Positions 1-12,242 of a DNA stretch of 32,427 nucleotides are shown here, in pieces. The notes beneath the pieces were generated by a model that did not search any database, was not told the origin of the DNA, and saw only the letters and a program-made list of their open reading frames with translations. Where the stretch lies: positions 1 through 32,427 of the forward strand of contig NZ_QEIO01000056.1 in the NCBI RefSeq assembly GCF_003336425.1. Reading direction: 5' to 3'. Each line of letters opens with the position of its first letter. Position 1 is the first letter of the stretch. The stretch is from Marinitenerispora sediminis (GTDB lineage Bacteria > Actinomycetota > Actinomycetes > Streptosporangiales > Streptosporangiaceae). Made by a program: the position numbers and the translations under genes.

Positions 1-326
1 CCCCCCCGCCCGAAGCACCCGGCCACGACCGGCACCAGCGCGCCCCAACCCCGGGCCCGCACACCCGCCCGGCGCCATGGCGAGCGCGGACCGGCGGTGA
101 AGGGGGTCCCCCGCGTGGCCGCGCCGGTGCGTCGAGGCGGCCATCCGGCCGCCGAAGAACCAGCTCAGGCAGCGCCATGCCGCGCGGAGCACCGAGGGCG
201 AGCACCCGCCACCGGGGCCGCGCGCCCCGTGCCGTGACTGGACGCGACCGGCTGGCCGGTGCCCCGGTCACGCGGTCACTGGTCGCTCGTCACCACTGAA
301 CAGGTCACCCGGGTCCCGGCAACGGT
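1..326. other. Left-edge non-coding stretch
   Basis: No reading frame here looks like a gene. A 7-bp hairpin lies at 136-153 (GGCGGCC, loop ATCC, GGCCGCC). A cluster of GGTCAC-like hexamers lies at 266-308, just beyond the end of the minus-strand reductase. The stretch probably holds the 3' end of that transcript. Whatever lies left of the window is not visible. Confidence 0.5.
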
Positions 327-1286
327 CTAGCGCACCGTCGGCGACGAGGCGTCGGTCAGCGCCTCGCGGATCTCCCGGGGCAGCACGACCCCCTCGGCCG
401 CGAGGACGTCGCCGAGCTGGGCGGCGGTGCGGGGGCCGACCGTGGTCGAGGCGACGTGCGGCTGGTCGCGCACCCAGCTGAGTGCCACCGCCAGCGGGGA
501 CACCCCCAGCCCCTCCGCGGCGGTGCACACCGACTCCACCACCCGGCGGCTGCGCTCGTCGAAGTACGGCTCGACGTAGGACGCCATGTGCGGCAGCGCC
601 CCGCGGGAGTCGCCGGGGACGCCGGTGCGGTACTTGCCGGTGAGCACGCCCCGGCCCAGCGGCGACCAGGCGAGCAGGCCGGCCCCGCAGTCGGCCACGG
701 CGGGCAGCAGCTCCCGCTCGGCGTGCCGGTTCAGCAGCGAGTACTCGCGGCCCACCGACACGATCGGCACCCGGCCGATCGACTGCCCGGCCCGCTGCCA
801 GGTGGCGTACTTCGCCAGCTGCCACCCCGCGAAGTCGCCCACCCCGACGTAGCGCACCCGCCCGGAGGACACCGCCGTGTCGAGCGCGGCCAGCGTCTCC
901 TCGGCCGGGGTGTCGGGGTCGTGGACGTGCAGCTGCCACAGGTCGACGTGGTCGACCTGCATGCGGCGCAGCGACGCGTCCAGCGAGGCCAGGAGGTGCC
1001 GCCGCGAGGTGTCGCCGCGCCGGTGCCCCTCCGGCGTGTGCCCCACCTTGGTGGCGATGATCACATCGTCGCGGCGGACGACGGTCCGCAGCAGCCGCCC
1101 CACGATGCGCTCGCTGTGGCCCCCGGTGTAGATGTCGGCGGTGTCGACGAGCGTGCCGCCGGCGTCCACGAAGGCCGCGAGCTGGTCCGCGGCCTCCTCT
1201 TCCTCGATGTCCTTGCCCCAGGTCATGGTGCCCAGGGCCGTGCGGGACACCCACAGGCCCGACCCACCCAGCTGTCGCTGTTCCAT
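327..1286 (-). CDS. Aldo/keto reductase
   Basis: This is a 319-residue NADPH-dependent aldo/keto reductase with the usual (beta/alpha)8 length; such enzymes reduce aldehydes or ketones in the cytosol. The catalytic tetrad is visible: Asp48 in VDTADIY, Tyr53, Lys80 in IIATK and His120 in WQLH. The YSLLNR segment (normally YNLLNR) and WSPLGRGVLTGKY, near residues 182-217, are typical of the YhdN/Tas-like branch. The ATG at 1286 is supported by the conserved N-terminus (QLGGSGLWVSRTALGTMTWG). A TACTCT box ends 7 nt upstream of it, suggesting a leaderless message. The gene is divergent from uppP. The substrate cannot be predicted. Confidence 0.93.
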   Translation of the reverse strand: MEQRQLGGSGLWVSRTALGTMTWGKDIEEEEAADQLAAFVDAGGTLVDTADIYTGGHSERIVGRLLRTVVRRDDVIIATKVGHTPEGHRRGDTSRRHLLASLDASLRRMQVDHVDLWQLHVHDPDTPAEETLAALDTAVSSGRVRYVGVGDFAGWQLAKYATWQRAGQSIGRVPIVSVGREYSLLNRHAERELLPAVADCGAGLLAWSPLGRGVLTGKYRTGVPGDSRGALPHMASYVEPYFDERSRRVVESVCTAAEGLGVSPLAVALSWVRDQPHVASTTVGPRTAAQLGDVLAAEGVVLPREIREALTDASSPTVR

Positions 1287-1675
1287 GGCGCGGAGAGTAC
1301 CGTCTCAGGGCGTCGGCGCGGCGGGGACGGAACGGGAATCGCCGGTGACGCCCGGGCGGCGGGCCGGTGAACACGGCCGCAACGTGCGGCGGACGGCCGC
1401 CCGGCCGCACCGCTCGCCGGCGGCGGGAACACGGGTGCGGCTGCCGGTCCGCGCGGGCGCCCAGTAGGCTGCGGGCACCTGCGGCCGCGGGGGAGACCGT
1501 CCGGGGCGCGATCCAGCCCCGGCGTCGCGCCCCCCGAGGCGGGACCCCGACGGATGTCCCCCGGCCGCGGCCCCTTTCGTGCCGCCCCCTCCGGTCACGG
1601 AGCGTGCGGCGCCACCGCCCGCACGCGCTCGCCCGCGTACGCCGATACGGAACCCGACCAGGAGCCGATTCCGCC
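1287..1675. other. Divergent intergenic region upstream of uppP
   Basis: This 389-nt stretch separates the reductase from uppP. It is GC-rich, and open frames crossing it give only Arg/Pro/Ala-rich translations, so I see no gene. A TAGGCT at 1465-1470 is a possible -10 box for uppP, which would give a leader of about 200 nt. The likely uppP ribosome-binding site, AGGAG, is at 1660-1664. Confidence 0.4.
1294..1299 (-). promoter_or_regulatory. Candidate -10 box of the aldo/keto reductase (leaderless)
   Basis: The minus strand reads TACTCT, then 7 nt, then the ATG at 1286. This matches TANNNT at the distance that places transcription start on the start codon. No clear -35 box was seen. Confidence 0.5.
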
Positions 1676-2845
1676 GTGTCCATCTTCGAGGCCATCATCC
1701 TTGGACTTGTCCAGGGACTGACCGAGTTTCTGCCGATCTCCTCCAGCGGCCATCTCCGGATCGTCGCCGCGTTCTCCGGCTGGCCGGACCCCGGCGCCGC
1801 GTTCACCGCGGTCAGCCAGATCGGCACCGAGCTGGCCGTCCTCATCTACTTCCGCAAGGACGTCTGGAACATCATCAGCACGTGGTGCCGCTCCCTGGTG
1901 AAGAAGGAGCTGCGCCGGCAGACCGACGCCCGGCTCGGCTGGTACATCATCGTGGGAAGCATCCCCATCGGGGTGGCCGGCCTGCTGTTCGAGGAGCAGA
2001 TCGCCGAGCCGTTCCGGGACCTGCGGCTGATCGCGCTCACCCTGATCGGCTTCGGCGTGCTGCTGGGCATCGTGGACCGCCTCACCCGCAAGCACCGCGA
2101 GCTGACCGACCTCAACGCCCAGCGCGGCCTCGTCTACGGCCTCTTCCAGATGCTGGCGCTGATCCCGGGCGTGTCGCGTTCGGGCGCCACCGTCACCGGC
2201 GGCATGCTGCTCGGCTTCAAGCGCGAGGCGGCGGCCCGCTACGCCTTCCTGCTCGCGATGCCCGCCGTGTTCGCCTCCGGCGTGTACAAGCTCAAGGACA
2301 TCGGCGGCGACGAGTACGCGGGCTGGGTGGCCACGCTGGTCGGCACGGTGGTGGCCTTCGCCGTGGGCTACGCCGTCATCGCCTGGTTCATGCGCTTCAT
2401 CTCCACCAACAGCTTCATGCCGTTCGTCTACTACCGCGTCGCGCTGGGCATCGTCATCCTCGCCCTGGTGAGCTTCGGCGTGCTGCGGCCGGAGTCCGGC
2501 GCGCAGGTCGAGCACACCTCCGAGGTGTCGAGCACGCAGCAGGAGGACCCCGAGCCCAGCCCGTCGGCCGAGCCCGCGCCCAGCCCGGAACCCTCGCCCA
2601 GCCCGTCGCCGGCCCTCGCCGTGGATCCGGCCACCGGCCAGCCGGTCGACCCGGCGACCGGCCTGCCGTTGCAGCAGGATCCGAACACCGGGCAGTACCT
2701 CGACCCGGCCACCGGGCTGGCCCTGGAGCAGGACCCCGTCACCGGGCAGTACCTCGACCCGGGCACCGGGCTGCCGCTGGAGCCGGCTCCGGCCCAGCAG
2801 GACCCCGCCCAGCCGGACACCGGACAGGCCGTGCCCGGCCAGTAG
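1676..2845 (+). CDS. uppP: Undecaprenyl-diphosphatase UppP/BacA with C-terminal repeat tail
   Basis: This 389-residue integral membrane enzyme removes a phosphate from undecaprenyl diphosphate, recycling the lipid carrier of peptidoglycan synthesis and giving basal bacitracin tolerance. Both BacA signatures are visible: LVQGLTEFLPISSSGHL near residues 10-27, and LIPGVSRSGATVTGG near 160-175. The first ends in the family's re-entrant SSSGH loop. The GTG at 1676 is chosen because the conserved SIFEAIILGLVQG begins there and AGGAG lies 11 nt upstream; a longer upstream frame is low-complexity. Residues after about 278 are not part of the normal enzyme (about 270-280 residues). They form a Pro/Ser/Glu stretch, then three 18-residue DPxTG repeats. 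The tail's function is unknown. Confidence 0.95.
   Translation: MSIFEAIILGLVQGLTEFLPISSSGHLRIVAAFSGWPDPGAAFTAVSQIGTELAVLIYFRKDVWNIISTWCRSLVKKELRRQTDARLGWYIIVGSIPIGVAGLLFEEQIAEPFRDLRLIALTLIGFGVLLGIVDRLTRKHRELTDLNAQRGLVYGLFQMLALIPGVSRSGATVTGGMLLGFKREAAARYAFLLAMPAVFASGVYKLKDIGGDEYAGWVATLVGTVVAFAVGYAVIAWFMRFISTNSFMPFVYYRVALGIVILALVSFGVLRPESGAQVEHTSEVSSTQQEDPEPSPSAEPAPSPEPSPSPSPALAVDPATGQPVDPATGLPLQQDPNTGQYLDPATGLALEQDPVTGQYLDPGTGLPLEPAPAQQDPAQPDTGQAVPGQ
2624..2785 (+). repeat. Three 54-nt coding repeats in the uppP tail
   Basis: UppP residues 317-370 are three consecutive 18-residue units of the form DPxTGQxxDPxTGLxL plus two residues, starting at residues 317, 335 and 353. Each contains two DPxTG half-units. 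The DNA is repetitive as well, so copy number could vary between strains. Confidence 0.85.
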
Positions 2846-2900: not shown

Positions 2901-3467
2901 ATGGACACCCCCGCGGCGCAGTCGCCCTTCAGCTACCCCGCCGGGCCCGAGGCCGACCCGGGCTACCTCCGCAGCATCCGCACGACCCCCGTGATCGGGA
3001 CAGTGCGCCTGACCGCCCTCGCGATGCTCGGCGCGGTCCCCCTCCTCTCCGTGCTCGTCGTCGTCATCCTCGGCACCGGGACGGACTGGAGCCCGCTCGG
3101 CCTGGCGATCCCGGCCGCCGGGCTCCTCACGGCCGGACTCGCGCTCGCGCTCCCGCGCGTCCCGCCGATCGATCCCGGCCGCTCACCGCACCGCACCGCC
3201 CGCGAGGCCGTGGGACGCCTCCAGGCGGCGACGATGACGCGGCTGGCGCTGTGCGAGAGCGCGGCCATGTTCGGGCTCGTCTCCTCCTTCGCCATCGACC
3301 GCACCGCGGTCCCCATGCTGCTCGGCGCGGCCATCAGCATGGTCGCGATGCCGCTGCTCGCCCTGCCGACCCGCGCGGCCGTGGAGCGGTTCCGCGCCGC
3401 GCTGGAGCGGGACGGCACCCCGTCCTACCTGTGGAACGAGCTCGTCCACCGCGGCGGTGCGGAATGA
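2901..3467 (+). CDS. Small four-helix membrane protein, unknown function
   Basis: This 188-residue protein has four likely membrane helices at about residues 37-58, 66-86, 113-132 and 137-156, with a charged loop (about 90-110) between the second and third. The N-terminus is Pro-rich and the C-terminus ends in an amphipathic, charged stretch. I do not recognise a family. It overlaps the next gene by 4 nt (ATGA), so the two are probably translationally coupled. It sits between uppP and the phosphomutase-like gene. A membrane anchor or partner for the downstream soluble proteins is possible, but this is inference from position only. Confidence 0.8.
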   Translation: MDTPAAQSPFSYPAGPEADPGYLRSIRTTPVIGTVRLTALAMLGAVPLLSVLVVVILGTGTDWSPLGLAIPAAGLLTAGLALALPRVPPIDPGRSPHRTAREAVGRLQAATMTRLALCESAAMFGLVSSFAIDRTAVPMLLGAAISMVAMPLLALPTRAAVERFRAALERDGTPSYLWNELVHRGGAE

Positions 3468-4186
3468 GGGGGACCGCCACCCTCCTGCTGGTCCGGCACG
3501 GGCTCACCCCGCTCACCGGCGGCTCGCTGGCCGGCTGGACGCCCGGCGTGCACCTGGACGAGCGCGGCCGCGCGCAGGCACGCGACCTCGCCAGGCGGCT
3601 CGCGCCGCTGGACCTCGCGGCCGTCGTCACCAGCCCGCTCGAACGCTGCCGCGAGACCGCCGAGGCCGTCGTCGGCGCGAACCCGGAGGCGCCCGCTCCG
3701 GTCATCGACGACCGGTTCGGCGAGTGCGACTACGGCGAGTGGACCGGCCGGACGCTCAGGGAGCTGGCCGAGGAGCCGCTGTGGCGCGTCGTGCAGGCCC
3801 ACCCCAGCGCCGCGCGGTTCCCGGGCGGGGAGAGCCTGGCCGAGACCGCGCACCGGGCCGTCGCCGCGGTCCGCGACTGGAACGCCCGGCTGCTCGCCGA
3901 GCACGAGCACCCGGTCTACCTGGTGTGCAGCCACGGCGACGTGATCAAGGCGGTCGTCGCCGACGCCCTCGGCCTGCACCTCGACCAGTTCCAGCGGGTC
4001 ACCGCGGACCCGTGCTCCCTGACCGCCATCCGCTACACCGAGACCCGGCCGTTCCTGCTGCGCGCCAACGACGTCGGCGGCTCGGTCGCGGGCCTGGCGC
4101 CGACCCCGGCCGACACCTCCGCCGACGCCGCGGTGGGGGGCGGTGCGGGAGCCGTTCCCGCCGGTGAATCGCACGTCCGCCCCTGA
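3464..4186 (+). CDS. Histidine phosphatase superfamily protein, MSMEG_4193-type phosphomutase-like
   Basis: This 240-residue soluble protein has the phosphoglycerate-mutase/histidine-phosphatase fold. The phospho-accepting His12 is in LLLVRHG. Arg61 (SPLERCRETA), Glu87 (RFGECDYGEW) and His157 (VCSHGDVIK) complete the usual active-site set. The canonical Asn three residues after the Thr of RHGxT is replaced here (RHGLTPLTGG). The C-terminal 35 residues are low-complexity. The start is the ATG overlapping the upstream stop. Family knowledge: MSMEG_4193-type proteins form a conserved actinobacterial trio with a DUF3090 protein and a PI-kinase-like protein, both present directly downstream. Whether it acts as a phosphatase or a mutase, and on what substrate, cannot be read from sequence. 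Confidence 0.9.
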   Translation: MRGTATLLLVRHGLTPLTGGSLAGWTPGVHLDERGRAQARDLARRLAPLDLAAVVTSPLERCRETAEAVVGANPEAPAPVIDDRFGECDYGEWTGRTLRELAEEPLWRVVQAHPSAARFPGGESLAETAHRAVAAVRDWNARLLAEHEHPVYLVCSHGDVIKAVVADALGLHLDQFQRVTADPCSLTAIRYTETRPFLLRANDVGGSVAGLAPTPADTSADAAVGGGAGAVPAGESHVRP

Positions 4187-4191
4187 TCCTC

Positions 4192-4197
4192 TAGGGT
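4192..4197 (+). promoter_or_regulatory. Candidate -10 box of the DUF3090 gene (leaderless)
   Basis: TAGGGT lies just after the stop of the phosphatase gene and 7 nt before the ATG at 4205. The overlapping AGGG could alternatively serve as a ribosome-binding site. If it is a promoter, the last two trio genes could be made separately from the first. Confidence 0.45.
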
Positions 4198-4204
4198 GCT
4201 AGCC

Positions 4205-4783
4205 ATGCCCGTGTTCCAATACGATCCTCCCGAACGATTCGTGGCCGGCACCGTCGGCCAGCCGGGGGAGCGCACCTTCTTCCTGCAGGCCGCCGGCGGC
4301 GGCCGGATCACCAGCGTCGTCCTGGAGAAGGCCCAGGTGGCCGCGCTCGCCGAACGGATCGAGGAACTGCTCGACGAGGTCCGCCAGCGCTTCGGGGAGC
4401 AGGCGGGCGACGTGGTCACCCCTGACGCCGTCGACGACGCGCCGCTGGAGCAGCCGATCGAGGAGGACTTCCGGGTCGGGACCCTCGCGCTCGCCTGGGA
4501 CGCCGAGGCGGCCCGGGTCATCATCGAGGCCCAGCAGGTCGAGGAGCCGGGGGCCGACGAGGAGCTGGCGGGCGAGGAGATCGAGGTCTTCGCGGAGGAA
4601 GCGCCCCCCACCCGCGACGTGCTGCGCGTGCACCTCACGCCGGGCGCCGCCCGCGCGTTCGCCGACCGCGCCATGCGGGTGGTCGCGGCCGGCCGCCCGA
4701 ACTGCCCGCTGTGCGGCCAGCCCCTGGACCCCGGCGGGCACGTCTGCCCGCGCCAGAACGGCTACAAGCCCCACGTCTTCTAG
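4205..4783 (+). CDS. DUF3090 family protein with C-terminal Cys/His knuckle
   Basis: This 192-residue cytosolic protein belongs to the uncharacterised DUF3090 (TIGR03847-type) family and is the middle member of the actinobacterial trio. The N-terminal half is beta-rich (FVAGTVGQPGERTFFLQA), followed by a helix (about residues 40-65) and an acidic segment. The C-terminus carries a probable metal-binding knuckle: Cys167, Cys170, His179 and Cys181. The protein ends in the sequence NGYKPHVF. An in-frame GTG at 4196 is possible, but the ATG at 4205 fits the family start and both upstream signals. No enzymatic motif was seen. A role as adaptor or substrate-binding partner of the flanking phosphatase-like and kinase-like proteins is inference. 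Confidence 0.9.
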   Translation: MPVFQYDPPERFVAGTVGQPGERTFFLQAAGGGRITSVVLEKAQVAALAERIEELLDEVRQRFGEQAGDVVTPDAVDDAPLEQPIEEDFRVGTLALAWDAEAARVIIEAQQVEEPGADEELAGEEIEVFAEEAPPTRDVLRVHLTPGAARAFADRAMRVVAAGRPNCPLCGQPLDPGGHVCPRQNGYKPHVF

Positions 4784-4929
4784 CCGGACGGCCGCCGCGG
4801 GCGGGTCCGGCACGTCCGCTGTCCCGGGTCGGCCACCTCCACCGGGTGGCGGCCCGGGCCGGATGGGCGACCATGGACAGGGGGCCGCGGCGCCGGGCGC
4901 CCGGCGGCCGCCCTACGCGAGGGGGTGTG

Positions 4930-5673
4930 ATGACCGCGCCGTTCGACGGTCGCACCGTGACCGACGCACTGGAGCTGCTGCGCACCGGCGAGCTCACGGT
5001 CGTCGGGCGGTTGGCGGACGCCTCGAACGCCACGCTGTACTGCACGGTCGAGACCGGGACCGACAGCGCCGCGTGCGTGTACAAGCCCGTCGCGGGCGAG
5101 CGCCCGCTGTGGGACTTCCCGGAGGGCACGCTGGCCGGCCGCGAGGTCGCGGCCTTCGCGGTCTCCGACGCCCTCGGCTGGGACGTGGTCCCGCCCACCG
5201 TCCACCGCGACGGCCCGTTCGGGGAGGGCATGTGCCAGCTGTGGATCGACGGCGACCCCGCCGTCGACCTGGTGGCGCTGTCCCGGGAGCGCGAGCACGC
5301 CGGCCTGCGGCGCATGGCGGTCTTCGACGCGATCATCAACAACTCCGACCGCAAGATCGGCCACCTGCTCCCCGTCACGGGCGGGCACGTCTACGGCTGC
5401 GACCACGGCGTCTCCTTCGCCGAGGAGTACAAGCTGCGCACCGTGCTGTGGCAGTGGCAGGGCGAACCGCTGCCGCCCGAGACCCTGGCGCGCCTGGAGC
5501 AGCTGCTCGACGAGCTGGCCCGCCCCGGCACCGCGGTCGCGCAGGCCCTGGCCCGCCACCTCACCGGCCCCGAGCGCTACGCGACCCGCCGCCGGGTGGA
5601 ACTGCTGTGCGAGCACGGCGTGCACCCGTTCCCCTCGCCGGACTGGCCCGCGCTGCCCTGGCCGCCCATCTAG
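4930..5673 (+). CDS. SCO1521-family protein, PI3/4-kinase-like
   Basis: This 247-residue protein matches the SCO1521 (TIGR03843-type) family, which is distantly related to phosphatidylinositol 3-/4-kinases. An ATP-lysine candidate lies in ACVYKPVAGERPLWDFP (about residues 54-70), followed by REVAAFAVSDALGW. The catalytic-like segment VFDAIINNSDRKIGHL is near 133-148, and a DHG metal-binding-like motif (YGCDHGVSF) is near 157-165. The ATG at 4930 has GAGGGGG just upstream; an adjacent GTG at 4927 would add one residue. It lies 146 nt after the DUF3090 gene. It is probably a small-molecule or protein kinase acting with the upstream phosphatase-like protein, but the substrate is unknown. Confidence 0.9.
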   Translation: MTAPFDGRTVTDALELLRTGELTVVGRLADASNATLYCTVETGTDSAACVYKPVAGERPLWDFPEGTLAGREVAAFAVSDALGWDVVPPTVHRDGPFGEGMCQLWIDGDPAVDLVALSREREHAGLRRMAVFDAIINNSDRKIGHLLPVTGGHVYGCDHGVSFAEEYKLRTVLWQWQGEPLPPETLARLEQLLDELARPGTAVAQALARHLTGPERYATRRRVELLCEHGVHPFPSPDWPALPWPPI

Positions 5674-5849
5674 GCCGTTGCCGGACGGCGGAGAGCAGCG
5701 GGCGGCGGGTGCCCTCCCACGTCATCGCGGCGCGCTTCTTCGTCCGTCCGGGCGGCGGTGTCCCGGCTTCTCGGCTCGGCGACGGCGCGCCCGCGTCCGC
5801 TCCGCCCCTCCGGTAGCCGCGGCGGGGGCGCGGGCGTGCCGCGGCCGAC

Positions 5850-8348
5850 TCAGCGGCCGCCGGCGCGGGCCGGCTCCCGGTGCGCCGCCGAGCGCGCCGG
5901 AGCCCGTTCGGCCCGGCGGGACAGCCGGTCGTCCACCACCCGCACCACGGTGATCAGCGCGGCGGCGCACGCGGCGACGACCAGGGCGGTGGCCACCGCG
6001 GCGGGGTCGCTGATGTCGAGGGCGAAGAAGGACCGGCCCGCCGGAGTGAGCAGGACGGTCAGCAGCGCACCCGCCATGCCGGCGACCAGCAGGGCCTTCC
6101 ACCAGACGTAGGGGCGGGCGACCAGCAGCAGCACCCACAGCGTGGTCGCGCACAGCGTGATGACCGGGGCGGTGCGGTCGGCCAGGTCCGGCGCGGCCGC
6201 GCCGTCCAGCGCCAGCAGGTAGCTGGCCACGGCGGCCAGGCCGCTGACGATCCCGGCCGGGACCGCCAGGCGCAGGGTCCGGCGGACGAAGCCCGGGCGG
6301 GCGCGCTCGCCGTTGGACGCCAGGGCGAGGAAGAAGGACGGGATGCCGAACGTCAGCGCGTTGATGAGCGTGGCGTGGCGGGGGAAGAAGGGGTAGGCGA
6401 CGCCCAGCAGGCCGACGACGGTCACCATGGTCATCGAGTAGACCGTCTTGGTGAGGAACAGGTTGGCGACCCGCTCGATGTTGCCGATGACCCGGCGGCC
6501 CTCCGCCACCACGTGCGGCAGCGTGGCGAACCTGTCGTCCAGCAGTACGATCTGGGCCACCGCGCGCGCCGCCGGGCTGCCCGAGCCCATGGCGACCCCG
6601 ATGTCGGCCTCCTTCAGCGCGAGGACGTCGTTGACGCCGTCCCCGGTCATCGCCACCGTGCGCCCGCGCGAGCGCAGCCCGCGCACCATGGCGCGCTTGC
6701 GCTCGGGGGAGACCCGGCCGAACACGGCGGCCGGGCGCACCCGGTCGGCGAGCTCCTCCGGGTCGTCCGGCAGGTCGCGGGCGTCGACGGGGGCGCCCGC
6801 TCCGGGCAGGCCCAGGCCCCGGGCCACCGCGCCCACGGCGGCGGCGTTGTCGCCGGAGACGACCTTCACCTCGACGTCCTGCTCGGCGAAGTAGCGCAGC
6901 GTGTCCGCCGCGTCGGCGCGCACCCGCTGCTCCAGTACCACCAGCGCCACCGGCTCGACGGCGCCCGGGGCCCCGGGGTCGTCGGGCGCGGCCACCGCGC
7001 CGCTGCCGCGCCCGAGCAGCAGCACCCGCAGCCCCCGTGCGCCGAGCCGCTCGGCCTCGGCGGTGACGCGCTCCCCGGGGCGCCCGAGCACGTCGGGGGC
7101 GCCGAGCACCCAGTGCGCCGTGCCCTCGGGGGTGCTGAAGGCGGCCCCGCTCCACCCGCGGGCGGAGGAGAACGGCACGACGGCCGCCACCGGCCAGTCC
7201 GGCGGCTCCGGGAACATCTCGCCGATGGCGGCCATGCTCGGGTTCGGCCGCGGGTCGGCGGCGGCCAGCGCTGCCAGGACGTCGGCCACCGGGGGCGTGC
7301 GGCCGGCGCGGCCCGCGCGCCCCACCTCCCGCACCTCGGCGACCCGCATGCCGTTCTCCGTGAGGGTGCCGGTCTTGTCGGTGCACACCACGTCGACCCG
7401 GGCGAGCCCCTCGATCGCCGGGAGCTCCTGGACGAGGCACCCGCGCCGCCCCAGCCGCACCACGCCGACGGCGTAGGCGATGCTGATGAGCAGCACCAGC
7501 CCCTCGGGGACCATCGACACCAGCGCGGCCACCGTGCCGCGCAGCGCGTCGGCGAGCGGTCCCGAGACGGTGCCGCCCAGCGACGCGCCGTCCGAGACGT
7601 GCCCGCCGAGGTAGAGCTGGCTGTAGACGAGCAGCGCGCCGGTGGGGAACAGCAGCCACGTGATGAACCGCAGGAGGCGGTCCATTCCGGAGCGCAGCTC
7701 GGAGTCGACCAGGGTGAAGCGGCTCGCCTCCTCCGCCAGCCGCGCCGCGTAGGCCGCCCGCCCGACCTTCGTGGCGCGGAACCTGCCGGACCCGGCCACC
7801 GCGAAGCTGCCGGACATGACGGGGTCGCCCGGACGCTTGACCACCGGATCGGCCTCACCGGTGAGCAGCGACTCGTCGACCTCCAGTCCGGCGGAGTCGA
7901 GCACGACGCCGTCCACCACGGCCTGGTCGCCCTGGGCGAACTCCAGGACGTCGTCCAGGACGACCTCCTGGGCCGAGACCCGGGCCACCGCGCCGTCGCG
8001 GACCACCCGCGGCCGGACGGCGTTGACGATCGCGAGCCGGTCCAGCGTGCGCTTGGCGCGCAGCTCCTGCACGATGCCGATCAGCGTGTTGAACACGATG
8101 ACCAGCGCGAAGAGGCCGTCCTGGACGGGGCCGATGACCGCGATGATCCCGAACAGTACGGCGATCATCGCGTTGATGCGGGTGAACAGGTTGGCGCGGA
8201 CGATCTGGCCGACCGTGCGCGCGGCGCGCACCGGCACGTCGTTCGTACGGCCGGCCGCGACGCGTTCGGCCACCTGCCCGGCGGTGAGGCCGCGCGCCGC
8301 GTCCGGCGCGGGCGGACCGGCCGGCACCGCTCCGCTGTCCTGGGCCAT
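5850..8348 (-). CDS. P-type ATPase, CtpE-like cation pump
   Basis: This 832-residue P-type ATPase pumps cations across the membrane using a phospho-aspartate intermediate. The actuator loop LLTGEAD is at about 161-167, PEGL in helix M4 at 281-284, phosphorylated Asp324 in DKTGTLT, and the hinge TGDGVND at 568-574. Six C-terminal helices follow ([14 protein letters not shown] near 635). PEGL and the NALTFGIP-type M6 resemble mycobacterial CtpE, a calcium importer. Ca2+ is therefore the best guess, but the ion is not proven by sequence. The ATG at 8348 has GGAG 5 nt upstream. A TAGGCT at 8474-8479 (minus) could instead drive a GTG at 8468, adding 40 Arg/Pro-rich residues. It is convergent with the trio and lies where mycobacteria carry cysQ. 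Confidence 0.93.
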
Positions 8349-8719
8349 CCGGTCTCCATCTCTGCTCGTGGGGCGGTCGGACGGCCGCCGCGGCGGCCCC
8401 GGTCCGCACCGCCGTTTCGGCGGGGCGGGCGAGACGGTCCGGAACATCGGTGAACAGGCGGCGCGCACGCACGAGCCTACGAGAACCGCGCGCGGCGCGC
8501 GGTGGGGGTGGCCCCCGCTCCGCCGGGGGTGTGCGCCACACCCGGGGCGGGCCGGCCCCGCGCGCACGCGGGGCGGCCGCCAGGCCGTCCGGCGACCGGG
8601 TAAACCCCGTGAGCACGGAAAACGTCTGATTCAGGCGGGGCCGGAACAGGGACGGCCGATACGGCTGAGCGGACCGTCCACCGGTGTGCCGCGAGAGGCG
8701 GAAGAGGGGCGAGTTCGAC
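8349..8719. other. Divergent intergenic region, ATPase / small membrane protein
   Basis: This 371-nt stretch holds a perfect 8-bp hairpin at 8485-8503 (ACCGCGCG, loop CGG, CGCGCGGT) and a minus-strand TAGGCT at 8474-8479, which is a candidate ATPase promoter. A less GC-rich patch at 8600-8635 may contain the plus-strand promoter. I see no gene. Confidence 0.4.
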
Positions 8720-8974
8720 GTGCCGCTGCGACGACGACCGCGACGAGGACGCTCAGGCCGCGACGGCGGGGCCGCCGGGGCCGCGCCCGGCGGCCCCGCC
8801 CGCGGGACCGGATACTGGGAGCCGGCCGCGTACTGGCTGCTGTACGTGGTGGCGCTCGCGGCGGTGCCGCTGCACTGGCGCTCGGAGAACCACGCGCTGG
8901 CGGTGCTGTGCGGAGCGGCCGTGCTGTTCAGCGTGCGCATGATCACCCGGACCTACGGCCGCGGCGGTTCCTGA
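8720..8974 (+). CDS. Small two-helix membrane protein, unknown function
   Basis: This is an 84-residue protein if translated from the GTG at 8720. An in-frame GTG at 8684 would give 96 residues. The 8720 start is preferred because AGGGG lies 11 nt upstream. The N-terminus is Arg/Gly-rich, followed by two likely membrane helices (about residues 40-56 and 62-77) and a short basic tail. I do not recognise a family. It ends about 100 nt before mshC, which has its own probable promoter. The hydrophobic pattern and G/C at third positions support coding, but the short length limits confidence. Confidence 0.6.
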   Translation: MPLRRRPRRGRSGRDGGAAGAAPGGPARGTGYWEPAAYWLLYVVALAAVPLHWRSENHALAVLCGAAVLFSVRMITRTYGRGGS

Positions 8975-9066
8975 GCGCGCCGCGGCGGCGCCTCCGCCGG
9001 CCCCCCGACGCGCGCCCTGCCTGCCGCGTTGCCCCGGGGCGCGGGGAATCGCCGAGGGCCGCCGGA

Positions 9067-9072
9067 TAGTCT
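9067..9072 (+). promoter_or_regulatory. Candidate -10 box of mshC (leaderless)
   Basis: TAGTCT ends 7 nt before the mshC ATG. The only Shine-Dalgarno-like GAGG ends 1 nt from the ATG, too close for normal use, which favours a leaderless message. Confidence 0.55.
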
Positions 9073-9079
9073 CTGAGGT

Positions 9080-10318
9080 ATGCGTTCTTGGCCTGCGCCC
9101 GACATCGTCCGCCTGCCCGGCAACGGGCAGGCGCTCCGCGTCCACGACACCGTCTCCGGCACCCTGCGCACCACCTCTCCCGGGCCGACCGCGCGGATGT
9201 ACGTCTGCGGCATCACGCCCTACGACGCCGCCCACCTCGGACACGCCTTCACCTACCTGGCCTTCGACCTGGTCAACCGGGTCTGGCGGGACGCCGGGCA
9301 CCAGGTCGACTACGTGCAGAACACCACCGACATCGACGATCCGCTGCTGGAGCGCGCCGCCCGGGACGGCGTGGACTGGCGGGCGCTGGCCGAACGCGAG
9401 ATCCAGGTGTTCCGCGACGACATGGCCGCGCTGCGGGTGCTCCCCCCGCGCGCCTACGTCGGCGTCGTGGAGTCCATGGACCTGATCGTGGAGTTCATCG
9501 AGCGCATCCGCTCCCGGGGCGCCTGCTACGACCTCGACGGCGACGTCTACTTCTCCGCCGCCGCCGCGCCCGGCTTCGGCTCGGTCAGCGGCCTCGGCCG
9601 GGAGGAGATGCTGCGGCTCTTCGCCGAGCGCGGCGGCGACCCGCAGCGCCCGGGCAAGAAGGACCCCCTCGACTGGCTGCTCTGGCGGGCCGAGCGCCCC
9701 GGGGAGCCCGCCTGGGACAGCCCGTTCGGCCGCGGGCGCCCCGGCTGGCACGTCGAGTGCAGCGCCATCTCCCTGCACGAGCTCGGGATGGGGTTCGACC
9801 TCAACGGCGGCGGCGACGACCTGGTGTTCCCGCACCACGAGATGGGCGCGTGCGAGGCGCGGTGCGCCAGCGCCACCGACGGTCCGCAGGCCCTCGCCTA
9901 CGCGCACGTCGGCATGGTCGGGCTCGACGGCGAGAAGATGTCGAAGTCCCTCGGCAACCTCGTCTTCGTCTCCGGGCTGCGCGCCGAGGGCGCCGACCCC
10001 ATGGCGGTCCGGCTCGCCCTGCTGGACCACCACTACCGCAGCGCCTGGGAGTGGACCGCCGACGCGCTGCCCGCCGCCGGCGAGCGGCTGGCCCGCTGGC
10101 GGGCCGCGGCGGCGCTGCCCGCCGGCCCCGACGCCACGCCGCTGCTCGCCCGCGTGCGCGCGGCGCTCGCCGACGACCTGGACAGCCCCGCCGCGCTGGC
10201 CGCCGTGGACGCCTGGGCGGCCGCGGCACTGGCCGCGCCCGAGGGCGGCGCCGCCGCGCCCGCGCTCGTGCGCGACCTCGTCGACACGCTGCTGGGCGTC
10301 GACCTCGGACGGTCGTGA
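9080..10318 (+). CDS. mshC: Cysteine:glucosaminyl-inositol ligase MshC (mycothiol synthesis)
   Basis: This 412-residue cysteinyl-tRNA-synthetase-like enzyme joins cysteine to GlcN-inositol using ATP, the penultimate step of mycothiol synthesis. The expected landmarks are present: zinc-site Cys43 in [17 protein letters not shown], the HIGH-like motif HLGH at 52-55, NTTDIDDP near 81-88, Cys227 in WHVECS, His252-His253 in FPHHEMG, and KMSKS at 286-290. The length and the N-terminus MRSWPAP match MshC rather than CysS, which is longer and carries a tRNA anticodon-binding domain. A strong hairpin follows 8 nt after the stop, so it is probably monocistronic or ends its unit. The enzyme is diagnostic of Actinobacteria. 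Confidence 0.97.
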
Positions 10319-10829: not shown

Positions 10830-10842
10830 GCCCGTGCGCGGA

Positions 10843-10863
10843 CGGGCCGGGGCTTCCGGCCCG
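10843..10863. terminator. Hairpin between convergent ABATE-like and PAC2 genes
   Basis: An 8-bp perfect stem (CGGGCCGG/CCGGCCCG) with loop GGCTT lies between two genes transcribed toward each other, so it may end both transcripts. Confidence 0.5.
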
Positions 10864-10893
10864 CACCGCGCCGCCGGACCGGCCGCCGCGGTA

Positions 10894-11739
10894 CTAGCCT
10901 CGGCCGCGCCGCTTCAGGTAGCGCTCGAACTCGCGGGCGATCGCCTCGCCGCTCGCCTCCGGGAGCTCGGCCGCGTCCTTGGCCTCCTCCAGGCTGCGCA
11001 CATAGCTCGCGATGTCGGAGTCCTCCGAGGCGAGCTCGTCGACCCCGCGCTCCCAGGCGCGGGCGTCCTCGGGGAGGTCGCCGAACGGGATGGTGAGGTC
11101 GAGGATGTCCTCGACGCGGCGCAGCAGCGACAGGGTGCCCTTCGGGCACGGCGGCTGCGCGACGTAGTGCGGCACGGCCGCCCACAGCGAGATGGTCTCC
11201 AGGCCGGCCGCGCCGAACACGTCCTGGAGCACCCCGACGATGCCGGTCGGCCCCTCGTAGTTGGTCGGCTCCAGGCCGAGCGTGCGGCGCAGCTCGGGCG
11301 GCGACACCACGCTGGCCACCGGTACCGGCCGGGTGTGCGGGGAGTCGGCGAGCAGCGCGCCCAGCAGGATCACCCGGCGCACGCCGAGTTCCCGGGCCAC
11401 GGCCAGCAGGTCGGCGCAGAAGCCGCGCCAGCGCATGTTGGGCTCGGTGCCGCGCACCAGGACGACGTCCCCGCGGCCGCCCGGCGGCCGCGCCACCGAG
11501 ACCCGCGTGGTGGGCCAGGTGACGCCCCGGTTCTCGCCGTCCACCATCTCCACGCGCGGACGCGAGACCTGGAAGTCGTAGTAGTCGTCGGGTTCGAGCG
11601 CCAGCAGTTCGTCGGTGTCCCAGACCGTGGCCAGGTGTTCGATGACCGAGCTGGCGGCCTCGCCAGCGTCATTCCAGCCCTCGAACGCGGCCACCATGAC
11701 GGGCTCGACCAGCTCCGGAACGCTGTCGAGCTCTCGCAC
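10894..11739 (-). CDS. PAC2 family (proteasome-assembly-chaperone-like) protein
   Basis: This 281-residue cytosolic PAC2-family protein is related to eukaryotic proteasome assembly chaperone 2. PAC2 proteins are common in Actinobacteria, but their biochemical role is not settled. Typical features are PVMVAAFEGWNDAGEAAS (about 13-30), VLVRGTEPNMRW, a core VRRVILLGALLADSPHTRP, and YEGPTGIVGVL followed by SLWAAVPHYVAQPPCPKGTLSLLRRVE. The C-terminus is acidic and helical. An upstream GTG at 11754 would place a strong AGGAGG inside the gene. The GTG at 11739 sits 6 nt downstream of that AGGAGG and is the better start. The gene is divergent from metH. No proteasome gene lies in the window. Confidence 0.92.
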   Translation of the reverse strand: MRELDSVPELVEPVMVAAFEGWNDAGEAASSVIEHLATVWDTDELLALEPDDYYDFQVSRPRVEMVDGENRGVTWPTTRVSVARPPGGRGDVVLVRGTEPNMRWRGFCADLLAVARELGVRRVILLGALLADSPHTRPVPVASVVSPPELRRTLGLEPTNYEGPTGIVGVLQDVFGAAGLETISLWAAVPHYVAQPPCPKGTLSLLRRVEDILDLTIPFGDLPEDARAWERGVDELASEDSDIASYVRSLEEAKDAAELPEASGEAIAREFERYLKRRGRG

Positions 11740-12242
11740 AGGCCGCCTCCTCACATTCCGGACTCCGGCGCCGCGGCTATCCGGTCGACATCACCAACAA
11801 CTGACGCGAACTCCAGCCCTACCACGTTCCGGGTCCGGGGCGACAGCCACTTTCGGGATCCGCAGCGGTCTGCCGTCGTCGGGACCGAACCGGGCTCGGC
11901 CGAACTCGGGACCACCCTATGCCGTCCGCACTGCGCGGCGCAGGGGGCGAAGCCCAAGTGTCGGGCACTCCACTGCCATGGTCGGTGGGGCGGGGGCCGG
12001 CACACGTCACCCACCTTGCAACACCCCGCACCGCCCGGTTGTTCCGCCCCGGTCCCCGGGCCGGCCGGTGCCGGCCGCGTGCGCTAGGGTCGGGGGCGCG
12101 ACCGCTCCGAGGTCCCGCCGCTGGCGGGGCGCCAGGCGGCCCCGGCCGCGCTCCCGGCCGCCGTGCCCCTCGCGGCCGCCCCCGGCGGCCGCTACCCGTC
12201 CTCGAGCCGCGAACCGGCTCGCGCTTACTACAGTTAAGGGTC
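11740..12242. other. Divergent PAC2 / metH intergenic region
   Basis: About 500 nt contain no convincing gene. TAGGGT at 12085-12090 and TACAGT at 12229-12234 are plus-strand -10 candidates. I looked for a cobalamin riboswitch B12 box and did not find a convincing one. The PAC2 ribosome-binding site AGGAGG lies at the left end on the minus strand. Confidence 0.4.
12229..12234 (+). promoter_or_regulatory. Candidate -10 box of metH (leaderless)
   Basis: TACAGT ends 8 nt before the ATG at 12243. The intervening AAGGG ends only 2 nt from the ATG, an unusually short Shine-Dalgarno spacing. Confidence 0.45.

Follow-up and report, generated by a model that had tools for sequence, protein, structure and literature searches.

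A phosphatase, DUF3090 and SCO1664-family kinase trio of Marinitenerispora sediminis as a candidate reversible-phosphorylation module

Described relatives and layout of the trio

No function is stated for the NCBI families TIGR03848, TIGR03847 and TIGR03843, which NCBI reportedly describes as a trio. Its counterparts are presumably Rv2135c-Rv2134c-Rv2133c of M. tuberculosis and SCO1664 of S. coelicolor, with Rv2135c, judged by its locus description, taken here as the counterpart of the phosphatase. One such trio lies in the 32,427-nucleotide stretch NZ_QEIO01000056.1 of Marinitenerispora sediminis (hereafter the window), where a histidine phosphatase, a DUF3090 protein and a kinase-like enzyme of the SCO1664 family are encoded in this order on the forward strand, all three genes being intact. 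While the families themselves were already known, the comparisons presented here bear on how this uncharacterised trio works and narrow the question: the phosphatase and the kinase constitute the tighter unit, DUF3090 is their usual companion, and genes of inositol, phosphatidylinositol (PI) and mycothiol metabolism are not required. We give roughly even confidence to a reading of the trio as a cytosolic module for reversible phosphorylation, in which kinase and phosphatase act on the same substrate and DUF3090 accompanies them. The features of the trio are as follows.

3464..4186, + strand: histidine phosphatase, TIGR03848 'MSMEG_4193 family putative phosphomutase' (NCBIfam 307 bits, cut-off 203.85; PF00300 160.4 bits)
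4205..4783, + strand: DUF3090/TIGR03847 protein with a Cys-Cys-His-Cys knuckle and a predicted PUR/Whirly-like fold (TIGR03847 246.4 bits, cut-off 117.25; PF11290 228.3 bits)
4703..4747, + strand: putative zinc knuckle CPLC...HVC of DUF3090 (from the translation; ligands in 117/117 sequences)
4930..5673, + strand: SCO1664-family kinase-like enzyme, TIGR03843, with a predicted fold of the PI4KII/Fam20/HipA type (317.5 bits, cut-off 172.4)
5338..5355, + strand: catalytic-loop motif NNSDRK of the kinase (from the translation; N138, D140, R141 and K142 in 122/122 sequences)
5401..5409, + strand: metal-binding D-H-G of the kinase (from the translation; D158 in 122/122 sequences)

A sequence-only reading of the window had described three genes in this order, a full histidine-phosphatase active site, a Cys/His knuckle in DUF3090 and a PI3/4-kinase-like segment, all of which is borne out: the genes share one strand and each exceeds its NCBIfam cut-off, the phosphatase contains R11-H12-G13, R61, E87 and H157, DUF3090 contains C167/C170/H179/C181, and the kinase contains N137-N138-S-D140-R141-K142 and D158-H159-G160. 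DUF3090 starts 18 bp past the stop of the phosphatase, and the kinase starts at ATG 4930, with an alternative ATG at 4873. Families, order and scores above the curated cut-offs are those of the NCBIfam trio; the sole unusual trait of the window copy is the 146-bp gap ahead of ATG 4930, whereas in relatives DUF3090 and kinase genes overlap by a median of 4 bp (78 named loci, with starts picked by script). Folding of this gap is no better than that of shuffled sequences (z -0.78) and gives no support for a hairpin or attenuator, and a scan restricted to sigma-70-like promoters found none between 2800 and 5900. The nearest rows to the window in the tree belong to Nocardiopsis and Streptomonospora. 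The observation of the trio is far beyond chance, and the window copy itself is ordinary.

Published information, as far as the accessible portions of the sources go, is limited to brief statements. SCO1664 has been described in a review as closely linked to mshC (PMC4255298), DUF3090 has been listed as a putative metal-binding protein (PMC9425974) and named in a list of a Streptomyces synteny paper (PMC13118837), and Rv2134c appears in the altered-sensitivity mutant section of a rifampicin screen in BCG (PMC11329110). In these portions of the open-access literature, functional work on the kinase or on DUF3090 was not found.

Conserved residues and predicted folds

Throughout the kinase family, residues K52, E72, D140, R141, K142, H145 and D158 are invariant and N138 is likewise kept (122/122 sequences each); the C-terminal PWP is invariant in the same 122 sequences and an LRT-W segment nearly so. 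The AlphaFold2 model of the kinase, calculated from 47 sequences, has a predicted local distance difference test score (pLDDT) of 90.4 and a predicted template modelling score (pTM) of 0.90. Its best structural match are the type II PI 4-kinases PI4KII beta and alpha (Z 17.9, 224 of 247 residues aligned, root-mean-square deviation (rmsd) 3.8), followed by Fam20 (Z 16.0), CtkA (13.2) and HipA (about 10; the HipA/HipT/CtkA range being about 9.5-13), with Rio and ArkI kinases among the weaker matches; the Foldseek E-value is 3e-7. A kinase-like structure lacking an ATP site, which the sequence-only reading had named as an argument against a shared cycle, is not what was found, since K52 and D158 are present in every sequence of a confidently modelled family. 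At E<=1, PF00454 is matched by 27 of the 28 sequences of a diverse kinase alignment (best 1.7e-8), HipA_2 by 13 and Fam20C (PF06702) by five (best 0.0043). The window kinase itself misses the gathering score of PF00454 (15.4 vs 27.1 bits), which is exceeded by the kinase of locus L112 (32.9 bits), a representative of the type-2 kinases treated below. Searching with the 28-row kinase profile retrieved FAM20A at an E-value of 0.0028, whose listed alignments show SN and VPPTVxR segments, and PI4KA and PI4K2B at 0.026-0.071. By its residues and its predicted fold the kinase is active-looking; the fold alone names no substrate.

Compared with the type II PI 4-kinases (PI4KIIalpha/beta), the window kinase shares the predicted fold, the ATP-site lysine and motifs of the DR and DxG type, but identity is only about 15-18%, the protein comprises 247 residues and a PI synthase is not required in the host genome. 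PI4KII enzymes carry a cysteine-rich palmitoylation motif; a cysteine cluster of this type is absent from the translation of the window kinase. Likeness to the Fam20 kinases (the protein kinase Fam20C and the xylosylkinase Fam20B) is suggested by the predicted fold and by the FAM20A profile match; Fam20 kinases have secretory features, and the window kinase is bacterial. With the HipA/HipT toxin kinases and CtkA it has the kinase superfamily fold in common. HipA systems differ in that the partners of the window kinase are a phosphatase and DUF3090; no HipB-like gene was found next to it among the scanned open reading frames (ORFs) of the window, and its flanks are DUF3090 and a P-type ATPase gene on the opposite strand. 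According to PADLOC the trio matches no defence system, and plasmid and phage records with matches are few (two and one, respectively). The unannotated 14.9-kb 'Bacteriophage sp.' record MT835969.1 encodes an SCO1664-family kinase at 2181-2924 (46% identity) and is possibly a bacterial contamination.

In the phosphatase family, R11, H12, R61, E87 and H157 are present in 119/119 sequences. The window phosphatase belongs to branch 1 of the histidine phosphatases (PF00300, gathering score 21.7 bits) and stays below the cut-off of the dPGM mutase model TIGR01258 (24.1 vs 81.7 bits). Like the window phosphatase, Rv2135c has uppP, the gene of undecaprenyl-diphosphate phosphatase, in its vicinity, and it differs from it in having RHA in place of RHG. 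The accessible part of the study on purified Rv2135c describes a weak acid phosphatase and a tetramer without mutase activity (PMC3866925). Since the mutase models score below cut-off and Rv2135c lacks this activity, the label 'phosphomutase' for TIGR03848 is probably a misnomer.

The four knuckle residues of DUF3090, C167, C170, H179 and C181, are invariant (117/117 sequences). Its model (pLDDT 82.8, pTM 0.75) matches PUR-alpha best (Z 9.9, rmsd 3.3, 113 residues aligned, Foldseek E-value only 7e-3), with weaker matches to MRP1/MRP2 and Whirly proteins. The predicted repeats of the beta-beta-beta-beta-alpha type resemble those of PUR-alpha and Whirly, but DUF3090 is acidic and has an additional Cys-Cys-His-Cys tail, and in a profile search against the PDB it matched no PUR protein. 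The median isoelectric point (pI) is 4.58, with 0/117 sequences above 7, which is atypical for a nucleic-acid binder; for the core without loops the pI is 5.77, with 9/117 above 7. Due to this acidity, binding of nucleic acids by DUF3090 is not proposed here. DUF3090 may nevertheless be a simple phospho-target: none of its Ser, Thr or Tyr columns reaches 93% identity, but Ser/Thr is found at position 37 in 96% and at position 145 in 90% of the sequences.

Co-distribution and the phosphatase-kinase pair

The distribution of the families was followed in 149 genomes of the phylum, 148 genomes of the window's class and 218 genomes from the order of genome G231; for the phosphatase family the profiling was confined to the phylum sample, whose genome lists were compared by reading. 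An independent distribution of the three families, also named in the sequence-only reading as speaking against a shared cycle, was not observed. In the phylum sample an identical set of 68 genomes contains kinase and DUF3090, all of them with a TIGR03848 match at 1e-30. TIGR03848 exceeds its cut-off in 55 phylum genomes, and in 15 genomes lacking the kinase only weaker TIGR03848-like matches below the cut-off are present. In the class sample the kinase was found in 140 and DUF3090 in 139 genomes (both 138, kinase only two, DUF3090 only one, neither seven). Of the two kinase-only genomes, G155 has a kinase truncated at a contig end (contig of 4.0 kb) and G160 is 72% complete. Retention of kinase and DUF3090 in 138 of 148 class genomes includes all ten sampled members of family f70, nine of which have genomes of just 1.2-1.4 Mb. 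The order sample gave a corresponding picture (both 109, kinase only two, DUF3090 only none, neither 107), DUF3090 thus being present in 109 of 111 kinase genomes; the remaining two, G417 and G436, possess one kinase each, which is of type 2. The order phosphatase-DUF3090-kinase is kept in 78/78 named loci with all three genes, among them L056 with a 2-kb insert ahead of the kinase; the other two of the 80 named relatives, L069 and L071, are cut by contig ends.

Seven loci (L112, L136, L137, L138, L139, L140 and L141) contain an adjacent phosphatase-kinase pair of type 2 with no DUF3090 beside it. For kinase and phosphatase of L112 alike, the five nearest outside loci are L028 and L121 (from one genome), L114, L117 and L120, which belong to families f27 and f42. 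Six type-2 kinases nest among f27/f42 loci in the tree, where the kinases without DUF3090 require two changes. Since both L112 members share their outside relatives and the kinases nest in this way, the pair apparently moved together as a unit and DUF3090 did not, as far as sequence relationships can tell. A separate case is provided by five genomes of family f63 (L144-L148), in which phosphatase and kinase lie together and DUF3090 is located elsewhere in the same genome; at two of these DUF3090 sites (L149 and L150) it stands alone. The phosphatase-kinase pair is therefore the tighter unit, and DUF3090 its usual companion.

In all seven type-2 loci, the stretch of about 1.5 kb upstream of the phosphatase contains, on the opposite strand, one gene for an AAA+ ATPase and one for a VWA protein (L112 region 3805-8766). 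The AAA+ protein is ChlI/MoxR-like (PF07728 1.2e-8, PF01078 4e-7) and the VWA protein matches PF13519 (5e-7). In tblastn searches with the L112 proteins no AAA+/VWA genes were found in the other loci compared, many of which reach just 1.5 kb past the kinase. This AAA+/VWA pair is the most suggestive new clue. In L141 (genome G431) the frame of the type-2 kinase is broken by internal stops, and matches to the phosphatase, AAA+ and VWA genes next to it remain almost full-length.

Possible substrates and surrounding genes

Two putatively opposing enzymes whose active-site residues are intact and which stay together as other genes change, accompanied by a nearly constant partner, fit a reversible-phosphorylation module. 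In such a module the SCO1664-family enzyme would belong to the PI4KII/Fam20/HipA superfamily and be catalytically active as an ATP-dependent kinase, and the TIGR03848 protein would act as a phosphatase, not as a mutase, undoing the action of the kinase on the same substrate. DUF3090, the usual companion, would present or recognise the target by means of its PUR/Whirly-like sheet and its zinc knuckle, and all three proteins would be located in the cytosol. The substrate would most likely be a protein or a protein-bound group; a protein target is favoured mainly because the type-2 pair lies near AAA+/VWA genes with no DUF3090 beside it. Tentatively, the system might even represent a hitherto undescribed actinobacterial switch, in which a PI4KII/Fam20-type kinase and its closely bound histidine phosphatase use swappable partners, either DUF3090 or the AAA+/VWA pair, that bring different protein targets.

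Several observations weigh against a module of this kind. Co-distribution shows a functional link and is no proof of a shared substrate; moreover, the Fisher p-values are very small but ignore shared descent, and they overstate independence because co-distribution follows taxonomy. Coupling is also not strict. G218, the DUF3090-only genome of the class sample, keeps phosphatase and DUF3090 with no kinase match, and in the C. glutamicum control genome kinase and phosphatase were detected and DUF3090 was not. The correspondence between DUF3090 and type-1 kinase is imperfect, since G304 (locus L136) encodes DUF3090 at G304:C63:36738-37259 and has a type-2 kinase as its sole kinase match; a former type-1 kinase may have been lost or replaced there. 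Six of the type-2 loci are from family f2 and one is from f91, so that shared descent may account for part of the agreement among their neighbours. The fold match of DUF3090 is moderate and its acidity does not suit the proteins it resembles. Finally, the accessible part of the Rv2135c study gives Michaelis constants (Km) of about 8-14 mM (7.75-14) on four substrates and no activity on glucose-6-phosphate, ADP or 3-phosphoglycerate (PMC3866925).

The resemblance to PI 4-kinases raises the question whether phosphatidylinositol or an inositol phosphate is the substrate of the kinase, with the phosphatase reversing the phosphorylation. In that case the kinase could be what forms PI 3-phosphate (PI3P) in mycobacteria, where PI3P synthesis was reportedly described by Morita in 2010. 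PI4KII as top fold match and the PF00454 matches agree with this proposal, and so did, at the level of the class sample, the distribution of PI-phosphate synthase (PIPS, model NF045883). PIPS exceeds its cut-off in 141 of 148 class genomes and is absent at 1e-10 from all four f79 genomes of this sample (G231, G243, G254 and G275), which also lack kinase and DUF3090. In the order sample the kinase is associated with PIPS (p 3e-4) and with Ino1 (model PF01658; p 4e-6), but taxonomy confounds these associations and can account for them. The same sample contradicts the proposal at the level of single genomes: at 1e-30 kinase and PIPS occur together in 97 genomes, the kinase alone in 14, PIPS alone in 71 and neither in 36, and for kinase and Ino1 the respective numbers are 100, 11, 68 and 39. 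As 1e-30 was the sole threshold applied to the 14 kinase genomes lacking PIPS, a divergent PI synthase is possible there. Six of the 111 kinase genomes (G293, G366, G387, G394, G422 and G492) match neither PIPS nor Ino1, and two of them, G387 and G492, are f79 genomes which possess both kinase and DUF3090. A corresponding case in the class sample is G267 (86% complete), where both genes are likewise present and PIPS has no match at 1e-10; conversely, G172 and G284 have PIPS above cut-off and neither kinase nor DUF3090. The substrate thus need not be inositol-derived. Together with the missing PI4KII-type cysteine motif, these data make a PI or inositol phosphate substrate quite improbable, and the kinase as the missing mycobacterial PI 3-kinase, a candidate encouraged by the f79 genomes of the class sample, was rejected on account of the order sample.

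A cycle on a small molecule or a metabolite-repair pair, in which the kinase phosphorylates a sugar or another metabolite and the phosphatase removes the phosphate, is rather unlikely. PXYLP1 is a histidine-type phosphatase, and Fam20 is the second-best fold of the kinase and recurs in the profile search. A precedent is given by the available part of a report on vertebrate Fam20B and PXYLP1, in which a Fam20 kinase is paired with a phosphatase on one target, a glycan xylose (PMC9346353). Rv2135c also hydrolyses fructose-6-phosphate, phosphoenolpyruvate and glycerol-1-phosphate, as far as the accessible text reports, but weakly, and its millimolar Km values and the metabolites left untouched speak against this explanation as well (PMC3866925). 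In addition, no metabolic gene is widely recurrent beside the trio in distant families. Action on RNA or DNA, with DUF3090 binding nucleic acid and the enzymes phosphorylating and dephosphorylating RNA or a nucleic-acid protein, appears very improbable: PUR-alpha, MRP1/MRP2 and Whirly are all nucleic-acid binders and Rio and ArkI are among the weaker kinase matches, but DUF3090 is acidic and fold likeness alone shows no function. It is also unlikely that the three proteins share no substrate and are merely co-expressed, with different targets, in a common process such as envelope or stress physiology near uppP. This would be in line with the position of uppP, which lies shortly before the trio in the window and, separated from it by further genes, also ahead of it in a Tsukamurella record, and with the retention of phosphatase and DUF3090 without the kinase in G218; genes outside the trio vary among loci, however, and phosphatase and kinase remain adjacent in loci devoid of DUF3090, where they were seemingly transferred together.

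For the trio, the sequence-only reading had proposed a shared cycle with a possible link to inositol, thiol or lipid-carrier phosphate metabolism. The shared cycle is plausible; the link is not supported in any of its three forms. With regard to inositol, 14 of 111 kinase genomes have no PIPS match at 1e-30, and six of them have no Ino1 match either. With regard to mycothiol, mshC exceeds its cut-off in only 12 of the 149 phylum genomes, all from the window's class and all with the trio, which leaves 56 of 68 trio genomes without mshC above cut-off. Among these 56, 15 trio genomes outside the class (e.g. G134, G016, G129, G102 and G113) contain a protein scoring 390-446 bits with the MshC model (cut-off 485), which is more than CysS-like proteins usually reach, and by sequence these proteins may be MshC-like ligases. 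Mycothiol as a requirement for the trio was accordingly rejected. A lipid-carrier link is likewise unsupported: uppP recurs beside the trio in and near the window's class and is missing from the rows listed for the distant-family loci L113-L129.

The genes around the trio in the window are the following.

1367..2845, + strand: uppP, a neighbour outside the trio, with the BacA domain at residues 109-363 (NF001392 337.9 bits, TIGR00753 267 bits, PF02673 293.6 bits)
2901..3467, + strand: 188-residue ORF with hydrophobic stretches upstream of the phosphatase gene (ORF list, translation)
5850-8567, - strand: P-type ATPase ORF, 905 residues, between the trio and mshC
9080-10318: mshC, followed by an ABATE-domain ORF, PAC2 and metH

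The trio had been placed beside uppP, a small membrane protein and mshC. This holds for uppP and the 188-residue ORF, which lie directly upstream, and not for mshC, which is located beyond the P-type ATPase gene. The ATG of the phosphatase overlaps the stop of the 188-residue ORF (ATGA at 3464-3467), for which no NCBIfam or Pfam family was found above cut-off. ORFs at 268-1845 (-), 7771-9069 (+) and 10834-12087 (+) have no family match and are apparently mere shadows of genuine genes.

Across 28 compared loci, three ORF clusters located at the trio are shared by 27-28, and two further clusters (24 and 20 loci) read as opposite-strand shadows of the trio region. Clusters of uppP, mshC and an aldo/keto reductase recur in 7, 10 and 11 loci, respectively, in or near the window's class; none of the three was found within 6.5 kb among the rows listed for the distant-family loci L113-L129, where small sets of other neighbours recur in up to about four loci. 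The uppP ORF of the window continues for about 120 residues beyond the BacA domain (2456-2845) in a low-complexity C-terminal tail, which is rich in Pro, Ser and Gln and contains a repeated D-P-x-T-G. In the 33.5-kb plasmid-labelled record NZ_LR134462.1 of Tsukamurella tyrosinosolvens (L153), uppP, the trio, mshC, PAC2 and metH follow each other in the order of the window with other genes between; this record may be a misassembled piece of the chromosome.

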